Notes under the pieces: model-generated | What the model saw: the letters and a program-made list of their open reading frames with translations, nothing else | Databases searched by the model: none | What the model was told of the DNA's origin: nothing | Shown: positions 39,498-44,787 of the stretch, piece by piece | Layout: each line of letters begins with the position of its first letter | Position numbering within the stretch: position 1 is the first letter of the stretch | Position numbers and translations under genes: made by a program | Assembly (NCBI RefSeq): GCF_030542965.1 | Contig: NZ_JAUAOA010000008.1 | Coordinates: 1-64,000, forward strand | Source of the DNA: Azotosporobacter soli | GTDB taxonomy: Bacteria; Bacillota; Negativicutes; SG130 | Direction of reading: 5' to 3' | DNA: 64,000 nucleotides

Positions 39498-39600
39498 GAA
39501 ACGTCATCCGCTCTTAGTGACTTTTGTTGGCGCTGCTGCAGGAATTGGATTAAAAACAGCTAAATAAATAGCAGGAGTAACGGTGCGGGGAGGGGCTGAA

Positions 39601-40239
39601 ATGCGGCGGGGGGATGGAAAGCTGCAGTTGTGGACGATTCAGTCATTGGCGGCGTGGCAAGAATTGGAGCGGGACGGGGTACTGTGGTGCCGACCTGTAG
39701 TGGCCGAAATCGCATTTTTAGCGGCTTATCAGTGGATGCGCGACGAAATGATAGCGCGGATCGGTCCACCACCGCATGAAGACGCTTATCCGCTCTGGGC
39801 GTGGTACCATTGGCACGGCGATCACCAGCCGAAACCGGACATGCGCTATAGCGGCCAGCTGCCGCCAGGAACGCCGGGAATGCGGATCGAATTTTCGATT
39901 CCGGCCGAGCAAGTCGTGCTGTCTGATTTCATCCTTTGGCACCATGTGCTGAACGGCTGGTATTTGGGAGAATCATTGGCGGATGATGCCGCTTTTGAGT
40001 TGGAACGGCAGCGACGTGGTTTACGCTATCCGATGGGACATACCAAAAAGGACGGCGATCTGGAGGGACGGGTGAGAGACAGTTGGCAGCGAATTTTTGC
40101 GTTGAATTGGGTCGATCCTGATCAATATCTTAGCCTGCCGCTGCAGGAAAAGAGCGTTCAGGCGACGCTTTGGGAAGTTCGACGTGAGCAGGTGTTGAAG
40201 GCGGAGTTGTTTTACGGCAAAGGAAAATGGGATGCATAA
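39601..40239 (+). CDS. DUF3841-like protein
   Basis: 212 residues, soluble, rich in tryptophan and histidine. It begins with KLQLWTIQSLAAWQELERDG, which I recognise as the start of DUF3841 proteins; other conserved-looking segments are PLWAWYHWHGDH and DFILWHHVLNGWYL. Function unknown. ATG 39601 follows GGGGAGGGG; the GTG at 39583 precedes that site. It stands alone between a repeat and the tRNA-Leu gene, with no visible promoter. Confidence 0.65.
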   Translation: MRRGDGKLQLWTIQSLAAWQELERDGVLWCRPVVAEIAFLAAYQWMRDEMIARIGPPPHEDAYPLWAWYHWHGDHQPKPDMRYSGQLPPGTPGMRIEFSIPAEQVVLSDFILWHHVLNGWYLGESLADDAAFELERQRRGLRYPMGHTKKDGDLEGRVRDSWQRIFALNWVDPDQYLSLPLQEKSVQATLWEVRREQVLKAELFYGKGKWDA

Positions 40240-40268
40240 AATTTTTCTGGCTTTTTATAAAAATATAT

Positions 40269-40297
40269 TTGACAGTGTGTTTTTGTTATGGTAACAT
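40269..40297 (+). promoter_or_regulatory. Promoter of tRNA-Leu
   Basis: TTGACA at 40269-40274, a 17-bp spacer, TAACAT at 40292-40297; the tRNA begins 30 bases downstream. Confidence 0.8.
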
Positions 40298-40326
40298 AAT
40301 AAATGTCGCTGAAATACGTGATATTT

Positions 40327-40412
40327 GCGGTCGTGGCGGAACGGCAGACGCGCTAGCCTCAGGAGCTAGTGGGGGCAACCTCGTGGTGGTTCAAATCCAC
40401 TCGACCGCACCA
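40327..40412 (+). tRNA. trnL: tRNA-Leu (anticodon CAG)
   Basis: 86-nt class II tRNA with a long variable arm. The acceptor GCGGTCG pairs with CGACCGC, the anticodon loop CTCAGGA carries CAG, the T-arm contains GGTTCAAATCC, and the 3' CCA is encoded. Single-gene unit with its own promoter and terminator. Confidence 0.97.
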
Positions 40413-40422
40413 TTTATAAGCA

Positions 40423-40451
40423 AACCCTCGAGGAATCGAGGGTTATTTTTA
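40423..40451 (+). terminator. Terminator after tRNA-Leu
   Basis: 9-bp stem AACCCTCGA with TCGAGGGTT, GGAA tetraloop, then ATTTTTAT. Confidence 0.9.
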
Positions 40452-40580
40452 TGAAACATTCAAAAGCGAATGCTAAAATCGCGCAAAAATGAAGCTGAAG
40501 CAATTTTCAAGCAGGAAAATATTGATTCAGGTCTAATATATACTAGAGTAGTTTTACGAGAGCCGGAAGGGAGATTTTTA

Positions 40581-41234
40581 ATGAAGCGAATCATCAGTGC
40601 ATTAATTTTTACCATGTTCTTTACGGTAGGAGGGGTTGCTTCCGCTAATCTTGGCGATACACGCGGTGCAATGGCCCAACAATATGGCGAACACCGTCTG
40701 GTTATCGATCAGGACGGACAACTTTGGACAAAGGCGAACTGGGAAGAAAAAGGACATCAAAAAGCAAAAGCTGCTTTTTATACCTATTCGTTTACCCGTC
40801 AAGGTCTGCATTTTTCGATGGAAGTAGGCTATGAAAGCGAAAAACCGGACGCGTTGGTGCGTTTTCAGCGTATTTCTCCAGACATGCCGATTAAAGTAAA
40901 AGAAGTGCGTCAGTACTTCCCGGAATTGGCACCGCTTTTAGACCATCCGAAAGCAATCACGTTTGCTTCGTATAAGACGCTGAGCCGTTATTTCCAAGAA
41001 CTCGAATCGCCGACGCGTATGGGAGTGCTGGTTCGCGAATTGCAGCGCGATTCATATTTTCCGCTCTTGGCCTTCAACATTCAAAATGAAGGCATCTTGA
41101 TTAAACAAGATGAAGAAATCAGCCGCGAAACGTACATTAGAGAATTCACGCTTGAAAAAGCTTCACGTACGCTTGTCCATGACAAACTGGATGTCGGGTC
41201 GCCTGAATGGCGTCCGATGAAGAGCTACTTCTAA
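40581..41234 (+). CDS. Exported protein of unknown function
   Basis: 217 residues. The N-terminal signal peptide is MKRIISALIFTMFFTVGG followed by VASA, with likely cleavage after about residue 22. The mature part is mixed alpha/beta, polar, without cysteines or recognisable catalytic motifs. I do not recognise the family. The in-frame reading from 40470 adds residues before the signal sequence and is rejected: ATG 40581 follows AAGGGAG. Its terminator is shared with the opposing minus-strand glycosyltransferase gene. Likely periplasmic or cell-surface. Confidence 0.75.
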   Translation: MKRIISALIFTMFFTVGGVASANLGDTRGAMAQQYGEHRLVIDQDGQLWTKANWEEKGHQKAKAAFYTYSFTRQGLHFSMEVGYESEKPDALVRFQRISPDMPIKVKEVRQYFPELAPLLDHPKAITFASYKTLSRYFQELESPTRMGVLVRELQRDSYFPLLAFNIQNEGILIKQDEEISRETYIREFTLEKASRTLVHDKLDVGSPEWRPMKSYF

Positions 41235-42217: not shown

Positions 42218-43066
42218 ATGGGCGTGATTATTGCTGGAGCATTACTGCCGCACCCGCCGATTATGGTACCGGAAATTGGGCAGGAGGATGTTGAAAAAGT
42301 TCGCAAAACAGTCAATGCCGCACGCCAGGTGGCAACGTACATCAACAAGTATAAACCGGATACGATCATCATTATCTCGCCGCATGGGCCGATGTTTCGC
42401 AATGCCGTAGGAATTTCACGCATACCGGCGCTGTGCGGAAACTTTAGCCGCTTTGGCGCGCCTGAAACGGCGTTGGAATTTGCCAATGATTGCAAACTTG
42501 CGCTGCGCATCGGCGGACAATGCGAGAAAAAAGGGATTCCGGTGGTCAATATCGATGAAGAGTCGGCACAGCGTTATCGTCTTTCGGTTGAGCTTGATCA
42601 TGGCGCGTTGGTGCCGCTCTACTATTTGCGTGATGCCGGCTTTAAAGGCGAAATCGTCTATTTATCAGTAGGCATGCTCGAGTATCGGCAAATGGAAATG
42701 TTTGGGGTAGCGGTTCAGGAAGCGGTACGTCTTAGCGTCAAGCGGGTTGTCGTTGTTGCCTCCGGTGATTTGTCGCATCGCCTCGACGCGGGTGCGCCAA
42801 ATGGTTACAGCCCGCGCGGCAAAGAATTTGACGAGCTTGTTTTGACGGCTGTGCGTGATAACAGTCTTCATTTGCTGCATCGCCTGTCGCCGGAATTAGT
42901 TGAAGAGGCGGGGCAATGCGGGTTGCGGCCGATCTTCTTTTTGCTGGGCGCGCTGGCGGGGATTAAAACAAAAGTCGAGTTGCTCTCTTACGAAGCGCCT
43001 TTTGGCGTCGGCTACGCGGTGGCGATTTACAAACCGTTTCTTGACGCGAAGGGAGGCGCCGTATGA
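42218..43066 (+). CDS. amrB: AmmeMemoRadiSam system protein B (Memo-like)
   Basis: 282 residues, Memo family, related in fold to class III (LigB-type) extradiol dioxygenases. Candidate metal ligands sit where expected: H12 in LLPHPPIMVPEIG, H56 in IIISPHGPMF, and D184/H187 in ASGDLSHRL. Human MEMO1 is a redox or metal-linked homologue; the bacterial reaction is not established as far as I know. ATG 42218 follows AAAGGA at 10 bases; earlier in-frame starts from 42155 lie upstream of it. The stop overlaps the next gene as ATGA. Confidence 0.85.
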   Translation: MGVIIAGALLPHPPIMVPEIGQEDVEKVRKTVNAARQVATYINKYKPDTIIIISPHGPMFRNAVGISRIPALCGNFSRFGAPETALEFANDCKLALRIGGQCEKKGIPVVNIDEESAQRYRLSVELDHGALVPLYYLRDAGFKGEIVYLSVGMLEYRQMEMFGVAVQEAVRLSVKRVVVVASGDLSHRLDAGAPNGYSPRGKEFDELVLTAVRDNSLHLLHRLSPELVEEAGQCGLRPIFFLLGALAGIKTKVELLSYEAPFGVGYAVAIYKPFLDAKGGAV

Positions 43067-43581
43067 ATAAAACGCATAGTACAGCAGTAGAATTAGCCTG
43101 GGCGGCGCTGCGCAGCCATTTGCACGTTGCTGAAATGCCGGAGCTTCCGGAACGGTTGCCGGAGGAGTTGGCCGGGCGCGCGGGCGTATTTGTTTCTTTG
43201 AAAAAGCAGGGACGTCTGCGCGGTTGCATCGGAACGTTTGAACCGACGCAAACGGACGTTGCGCATGAGATCATCCGCAATGCGGTAATGGCGGCGACGC
43301 AGGATCCGCGCTTTCCCAAGGTGGAGGAAGCGGAATTGCCGGAACTCGAGATTTCGGTCGATGTGCTGACGCCGCCGGAAGAGATTGCGGCTGAGAATCA
43401 GCTTGATCCGGCGCGCTATGGCTTGATTTTAAAAAGCGGCTGGCGCAAGGGGTTGCTCTTGCCGCAGCTTGAGGGCGTCAATACGGTGGAAGAACAAATT
43501 GCGATTGTCCGGCAAAAAGCGGGCATTGTGCCTGGTGAAGCGGTCACGATGTACCGCTTTACCGTCGTTCGCTATACCTGA
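43063..43581 (+). CDS. amrA: AmmeMemoRadiSam system protein A (AMMECR1)
   Basis: 172 residues, AMMECR1 domain. The invariant motif LRGCIGT is at residues 52-58 with C55. Further conserved blocks are DPRFPKVEEAELPELEISVDVL (split by the family between sheet and helix) and GLILKSGWRKGLLLPQ. The molecular function is unknown in all organisms I know of; the human gene is linked to a developmental syndrome. Co-translated with protein B through a 4-base ATGA overlap, which suggests that the two products work together. Confidence 0.88.
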   Translation: MNKTHSTAVELAWAALRSHLHVAEMPELPERLPEELAGRAGVFVSLKKQGRLRGCIGTFEPTQTDVAHEIIRNAVMAATQDPRFPKVEEAELPELEISVDVLTPPEEIAAENQLDPARYGLILKSGWRKGLLLPQLEGVNTVEEQIAIVRQKAGIVPGEAVTMYRFTVVRYT

Positions 43582-43600
43582 GTTGGGGAGGGGGAAAGAC

Positions 43601-44593
43601 ATGCGGGAAGCGCTATATTATGAAGCAGGTCATGACGGGGCTGTAGGCTGTCGGCTATGCCCGAAAGGCTGTGAAATAAAAGCGGCGCAGAGCGGCGCTT
43701 GCCGGGTTCGACGCAATGACGGCGGCCGATTGTACAGCTTGAATTATGGACAATGTTCGGCCTGTGCGCTTGACCCGCTGGAAAAGAAGCCCCTGTATCA
43801 CTTTTCTCCAGGACAAAAGGTATTGTCGCTTGGCACGTTCGGTTGCAATATGAGTTGTCGCTATTGCCAGAATTGGACGTTATCGCAGCAGGAACCGGCA
43901 ACGAAGTATCTATCGCCGCAGGACGCCGTTGCGTTGGCGTTGCGCTACCGTGAGAGGGGCAACATTGGCTTGGCTTACACCTATTCGGAGCCGACCGTTT
44001 GGTATGAGTATGTATGGGATACGGCGCAGGCAGCCAGAGAAGAGGGCTTGAAGAATGTTGTCGTGACCAATGGCTTCATCAACCAAGAACCTTTGAAAAG
44101 GTGGCTTGAAGTCATTGATGCGATAAACATTGACGTCAAAGCGTTTAACAAAGAGTTTTATCGGAAAATATGCGGCGCGGAATTAACGCCGGTGCTAAAG
44201 TGCGTGGAGATGGCCGCTCGGCGTTGCCATGTTGAAATAACGACACTGCTGGTACCGGGGCATAACGATGATCTGGCGGAAGTCGAAAGTCTGGCGCGCT
44301 GGCTGGCGGGCATTAATCCGGATATTCCGCTGCATCTGACGCGCTACCATCCGGACTATCAGTTCACTGCGCCAGAGACGCCGCTGAGCATGCTAAGCGC
44401 AGCGCAGGAGGCGGCGCGAACGCATTTGCACTATGTTTATATCGGCAACGTGGCGGGCGAGGAAAAAAACAGCTGTTGTCCGCATTGCGGGGCGGTATTG
44501 TTGGAGCGTTTTGCCGGAGATATGTCTGCTGAAGTGGGGCAGGAATGTCTGCAGTGCGGCGCGAAGATTCAGTTTACAGGACCATACTTGTAG
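43601..44593 (+). CDS. amrS: AmmeMemoRadiSam system radical SAM enzyme
   Basis: 330 residues. The radical SAM cluster motif is CxxxCxxC (C82, C86, C89) in FGCNMSCRYCQNW. An N-terminal cysteine-rich segment has C17, C20, C24 and C34, and a C-terminal zinc-ribbon-like part has C292, C293, C296, C316 and C319, so more metal sites are likely. The body resembles pyruvate formate-lyase activating enzymes, but no glycyl-radical enzyme is nearby. It starts 19 bases after protein A, after GGGGAGGGGG; a reading from 43469 is out of place. Substrate unknown. Confidence 0.9.
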   Translation: MREALYYEAGHDGAVGCRLCPKGCEIKAAQSGACRVRRNDGGRLYSLNYGQCSACALDPLEKKPLYHFSPGQKVLSLGTFGCNMSCRYCQNWTLSQQEPATKYLSPQDAVALALRYRERGNIGLAYTYSEPTVWYEYVWDTAQAAREEGLKNVVVTNGFINQEPLKRWLEVIDAINIDVKAFNKEFYRKICGAELTPVLKCVEMAARRCHVEITTLLVPGHNDDLAEVESLARWLAGINPDIPLHLTRYHPDYQFTAPETPLSMLSAAQEAARTHLHYVYIGNVAGEEKNSCCPHCGAVLLERFAGDMSAEVGQECLQCGAKIQFTGPYL

Positions 44594-44618: not shown

Positions 44619-44714
44619 GACACGAAGAAATGAAGACACGAAGCTGTGAAGAAGGGAAGAGTGAATTTTTTTTAGTCTCTTTTTCTTTCTTTTGTAGCTT
44701 CGTGTCTTCGTGTT
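44619..44714. repeat. ACACGAAG-type palindromic repeat, copy C
   Basis: Two nested ACACGAAG arms. The outer CACGAAG at 44621-44627 pairs with CTTCGTG at 44706-44712, and the inner ACACGAAGCT at 44636-44645 with AGCTTCGTGT at 44696-44705. The left arm is purine-rich, the right arm a T- and C-rich run. It fills the gap between the radical SAM gene and the arginine promoter. Confidence 0.7.
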
Positions 44715-44752
44715 GCGATGTTCAAAAGTAAGTTTATGAAAAAAGTTGCAAT

Positions 44753-44778
44753 CATCATTGCATTATTATGCAATGATG
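44753..44778. promoter_or_regulatory. ArgR-box-like operator upstream of argC
   Basis: Perfect 11-bp inverted repeat CATCATTGCAT with ATGCAATGATG around TATT. The core TGCAT-TATT-ATGCA resembles the ArgR/AhrC box (TGAAT-N4-ATTCA) with one change per half. It overlaps the -35 box and spacer of the argC promoter, where binding would repress. No argR gene is in the window. Confidence 0.65.
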
Positions 44779-44787
44779 ATGTATAAT
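44758..44787 (+). promoter_or_regulatory. Promoter of the arginine operon
   Basis: TATAAT at 44782-44787; the best -35 is TTGCAT at 44758-44763 with an 18-bp spacer. Transcription would start about 20 bases before the argC start. Confidence 0.7.

Follow-up and report, generated by a model that had tools for sequence, protein, structure and literature searches.

The segment between positions 42218 and 44593 of the window, the 64,000-nucleotide stretch of Azotosporobacter soli DNA analysed here, encodes a complete AmmeMemoRadiSam operon of three adjacent genes on the same strand, namely those for protein B, protein A and a radical SAM enzyme. The locus is a genuine, conserved and previously catalogued system, to which the present additions are refinements. 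The reading that we favour, with some reserve, is that it represents the standard AmmeMemoRadiSam system in a subtype with a LigB-like B, and that its three proteins act jointly as a radical SAM/Fe(II) modification enzyme. Memo-AMMECR1 systems have been described by Burroughs et al. 2019 (J Biol Chem, doi 10.1074/jbc.RA119.007595), as that work is cited in PMC7159879, and related radical SAM domains occur in peptide-processing conflict systems (PMC7159879).

Protein B (282 amino acids, LigB/Memo fold) is encoded at 42218..43066 (+) and begins at the ATG at 42218, the methionine from which its relatives also align; the gene starts in general were backed by alignments with relatives beginning at the same residues. 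The TGA stop of this gene (43064-43066) and the ATG of the gene for protein A (43063) form an exact ATGA overlap, as had been claimed in an earlier, sequence-only reading of this DNA. Protein A, a 172-residue AMMECR1-domain protein, spans 43063..43581 (+), whilst the 330-residue radical SAM enzyme spans 43601..44593 (+), its ATG at 43601 being preceded by GGGGAGGGGGAAAG. All three components pass the curated NCBIfam cut-offs for the AmmeMemoRadiSam system: protein A scored 146 bits against TIGR04335 (cut-off 99; 160 bits to PF01871), the radical SAM enzyme 312 bits against TIGR04337 (cut-off 220) and protein B, marginally, 29.3 bits against TIGR04336 (cut-off 26). The complete three-gene operon announced in that reading was thus confirmed at these positions. 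Relative to other members of the system, protein B only just passes because it is LigB-like and not a canonical Memo, and the radical SAM enzyme scores well below the maximum of 664 bits found among canonical members.

The trio is a real set and not a chance co-occurrence. In a class sample of 200 genomes, where radical SAM genes above or just at the cut-off were counted (one at 215 bits included), the radical SAM gene was present in 115, A in 118 and both in 114 (hypergeometric P ~1e-49, relatedness not corrected for). The two genes were adjacent on the same strand in 98 of these 114 genomes and apart in 16, so that the genes are not usually scattered in relatives, an outcome that the sequence-only reading had named as fatal to a joint system. 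The sampled genus g6 includes relatives that carry the trio and others that lack it. In the phylum sample (199 genomes, used whole for presence tallies), 147 and 151 genomes carried the radical SAM gene and A, respectively, above cut-off; roughly three in four related anaerobes have the AmmeMemoRadiSam system. Among sixty phylum loci, selected by their radical SAM gene, 58 had a B-A sequence in the same locus, as one fused polypeptide in 52; the fusion was also found, as judged by frame length, in 76 class genomes. Furthermore, the divergence of BA correlated with that of the radical SAM enzyme after removal of argC, argJ or rpsI distance (partial r 0.61-0.65; 39-45 loci, 0/2000 permutations, a permutation that leaves some shared ancestry in place). 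Linkage, fusion and correlated divergence together bear out the joint system proposed earlier; its description as conserved yet biochemically unsolved also stands. The accompanying statement that the system runs from bacteria to humans as separate proteins holds for Memo and AMMECR1 only, as to our knowledge there is no human TIGR04337 orthologue.

Eight distant loci were reached by a single-sequence search with the radical SAM protein against genome contigs. All eight of these genomes with a TIGR04337 gene encoded A, which lay near such a gene in four (G200, G204, G205 and G207), and several harboured extra, unlinked radical SAM paralogues. An apparent scatter of the genes outside the phylum (loci L032-L036) was dismissed, whole-genome searches having found A in every genome along with the additional paralogues.

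In terms of Pfam families, protein B scored 139 bits against LigB (PF02900) and 26.2 bits against Memo (PF01875), the latter below the 27-bit cut-off. Canonical Memo proteins were rare in the class: a score above cut-off was reached in 7 of 200 genomes, and a strong one in G057 and G176 only. The iron ligands of human MEMO1 are H49, H81 and C244, the last position being Glu in LigB, DesB and aminophenol dioxygenase (PMC11081632). Alignments placed these three MEMO1 ligands opposite His12 (42251..42253, +; also LigB H12), His56 (42383..42385, +; also LigB H61) and Cys234 (42917..42919, +) of protein B, which form its predicted Fe(II) site. The three residues were invariant in 20 separate B proteins and in the aligned B-A fusions, and the ECG-type motif of B recurred in nearly all of 95 loci. 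A phmmer alignment set the ligand Glu251 of aminophenol dioxygenase beside Cys234, within one position, and an internal contrast is offered by the host's own LigB paralogue on contig C21, which has Glu at exactly the Cys234 column. This second LigB-like host protein (L083:8441-9286, genome G000) is followed by a sigma-factor-like gene.

Since the 2-His-1-Cys set is kept whilst the host paralogue and the dioxygenases have Glu, protein B is LigB-like by sequence and Memo-like by its predicted metal site. The likeness to human MEMO1 and archaeal Memo extends to the nearby D184 and H187, read as counterparts of D189 and H192, but identity is only about 13% over the structural match to the model of a relative. 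That B-A model also matched TK2203, 2-aminophenol dioxygenase and AMMECR1 structures; for a natural B-A fusion, structure prediction returned confident domains but no confident placement of one against the other (pTM 0.63). The best matches to B, in sequence as in fold, were LigB extradiol dioxygenases and TK2203 (5hee), yet where the solved enzymes have their catalytic Glu, B and nearly all of its relatives have Cys. The 2-His-1-Glu iron ligand set of LigB dioxygenases was accordingly not found in B, where Cys234 replaces Glu, and the candidacy of B as a true dioxygenase was rejected on this ground. No dioxygenase activity has been found for MEMO1 (PMC11081632). An O2-using, ring-cleaving dioxygenase is also unlikely in this host because the organism is presumably anaerobic, as its class membership and the presence of glycyl-radical enzymes suggest.

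The radical SAM enzyme carries the CX3CX2C motif of its superfamily, which binds SAM through a [4Fe-4S] cluster, as C82/C86/C89 (43844..43867, +), present in 106/106 relatives. An N-terminal cysteine site, C17-X2-C20-X3-C24-X9-C34 (43649..43702, +), was conserved in 40/40 aligned proteins and in 105/106 by pattern. The C-terminal four-cysteine ribbon C293/C296/C316/C319 (44477..44557, +) was absent from 26 of the 106 relatives, as scored by a missing C-terminal CX2C pair, and its distribution on a tree built by a quick method implied 11 changes, at least 4 of them forced by well-supported branches. The ribbon is thus dispensable and not essential to the shared reaction. The neighbouring C292 was conserved in 3/40, with the other four cysteines kept wherever the C-terminal part was present. 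Whilst the cysteines had been numbered correctly in the sequence-only reading (C17/20/24/34 and C292/293/296/316/319), its suggestion of auxiliary metal sites at both ends needs correction in that the two putative sites are not equal, the N-terminal four cysteines being essentially invariant and the C-terminal ribbon dispensable.

An AlphaFold model of this enzyme (pLDDT 94) had as its nearest solved fold a pyruvate formate-lyase (PFL) activase with peptide substrate (3cb8; E 8e-16, TMq 0.61), and the nearest PDB sequence was also a PFL activase, the two sharing the core radical SAM fold and CX3CX2C. These matches would suit a glycyl-radical-enzyme activase that is linked to A and B by coincidence, a reading that we regard as very improbable given the remaining evidence. 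The protein scored 67 bits against the PFL-activase model TIGR02493 (cut-off 232), far below this and every other activase cut-off and far above that of TIGR04337; hence it does not group with the PFL activases, as the earlier reading had allowed that it might. It differs from PFL activating enzyme in about 75 extra N-terminal residues bearing the four invariant cysteines and in the optional C-terminal ribbon of its family, and its link to A is maintained across class and phylum. Three glycyl-radical enzymes were found in the host genome, on contigs C1, C3 and C20, whereas the window lies on C8, and none neighbours the radical SAM gene, as had been noted previously. That absence had been held to argue against a plain activase; the conclusion stands, the argument being weak alone. 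A better one is that each of the three enzymes adjoins its own activase-like gene, as read from the sequence, and the plain activase reading was rejected on the family scores together with these dedicated activases.

The AMMECR1 domain of protein A contains the LRGCIG motif at residues 52-57 (43216..43233, +), present in 94 of 95 relatives, and its solved structural relatives are all without an assigned function. In humans an AMMECR1 protein persists, apparently without the radical SAM enzyme. The human substitution G177D, which lies within this motif, has been linked to developmental disease (PMC5502304). It is conceivable, if very improbable, that the radical SAM enzyme acts on A itself, such that the LRGCIG loop would acquire a modified cysteine or a glycyl radical and A would serve as a small radical- or cofactor-bearing protein that cooperates with the Fe(II)-thiolate centre of B. 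That a few bacteria keep A but not the enzyme, as humans apparently do, argues against such a modification as a general role.

Those bacteria are G046, G172 and G190, near-complete genomes (99%) in which A was present, its frames being long enough to hold a fused B-A, and no TIGR04337 protein above cut-off was found; hence BA may work alone. A contrasting variant was seen in G197 and G007, where a short radical SAM gene adjoined a 206-residue B; no AMMECR1 was found in the G197 genome (97% complete). The shortened B proteins (about 206 residues; loci L064:8549-10057, L094:8569-10079 and L176:1465-2115) lack residues 58-126, a segment lying after H56 and before the DHG motif, but retain all ligands. 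Two of the three lie beside a short radical SAM gene, whilst for the third (G577) none was found within 1.5 kb. The pairing of a radical SAM enzyme and a shortened B, AMMECR1 being absent, is possibly a rare, reduced two-gene variant. These few genomes suggest that a system can, in some settings, do without AMMECR1 or without the radical SAM enzyme, while the iron site of B is kept throughout.

The persistence of BA in G046, G172 and G190, along with the iron binding of human MEMO1 and its effect on iron homeostasis (PMC11081632), would also fit a system in which BA is itself the Fe(II) enzyme or a metal-handling protein and is matured or repaired by the radical SAM enzyme as an accessory. We consider this unlikely, in view of the near one-to-one co-occurrence elsewhere and of G197, where the radical SAM enzyme accompanies a shortened B without A. 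Under the favoured reading of a joint modification enzyme, the PFL-activase-like radical SAM enzyme would cleave SAM at C82/C86/C89 and abstract a hydrogen from a substrate, be it protein, RNA or a small molecule. The Fe(II)-Cys site of B would then complete or present this radical chemistry, and A would have a binding role. The identities of the genes, their linkage, the fusion of B to A in relatives, the correlated divergence and the conserved ligands are observed; the identity of the metal as iron, the physical complex of the three proteins and this order of reactions are proposed. Nucleotide-base or isoprenoid modification was reportedly suggested for these systems by Burroughs and colleagues in 2019.

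The system is an ancient module, widespread in anaerobes, and its two non-radical parts persist in humans, where they are MEMO1 and AMMECR1, each tied to disease and neither with a known chemistry. The operon offers a tractable bacterial setting for finding that chemistry. The 2-His-1-Cys set in a LigB-like B and the B-A fusion as the common form point to the parts worth testing first, as do the natural variants without A, without the radical SAM enzyme or without the ribbon.

A radical SAM paralogue was observed at L084:6151-7188 (G053), scoring 152 bits against TIGR04337, below cut-off. Its cluster encodes a TonB-type receptor, a metal-type ABC binding protein, FmdE and a FecCD-type permease and, as read, contains no A or B. 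Paralogues with similar scores were present in several class genomes.

A comparison of gene neighbourhoods for a fourth conserved partner, as proposed in the sequence-only reading, returned a CwlD-like amidase and argC alone. The amidase (Amidase_3; 195-197 bits, below the CwlD cut-off of 222) was upstream in 20 loci of the first neighbour set (40 class loci and 8 distant loci) and in 31/60 phylum loci, and argC was downstream in 22 and 24/60, respectively. On these frequencies the trio could be functionally tied to its neighbours, either to arginine biosynthesis, from argC onward, or to the CwlD-like spore-cortex amidase, but such a tie has very little probability. The ribosomal genes rplM and rpsI are part of the same conserved block as the trio, the amidase and argC, so that the arrangement is probably inherited gene order (synteny), and the trio is also found elsewhere. 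In the window, the upstream place is occupied not by the amidase but by an opposite-strand transglycosylase gene, whilst argC lies 214 bases from the operon behind a perfect 13-base palindrome of its own. A fourth functional partner was rejected, the sole conserved neighbours travelling with ribosomal genes.

The palindrome, ATCATCATTGCAT TATT ATGCAATGATGAT, is located at 44751-44780, before a TATAAT-like box ahead of argC, and is reminiscent of an ArgR operator. The interval between the operon and argC also has, at 44632-44709, a perfect inverted repeat with arms of 14 bases (GAAGACACGAAGCT) around a 50-base loop. In the stretch from rpsI to the operon (39583-41234), the window encodes a DUF3841 protein and a conserved, exported-looking protein without a family match, with relatives near 15 of the loci.
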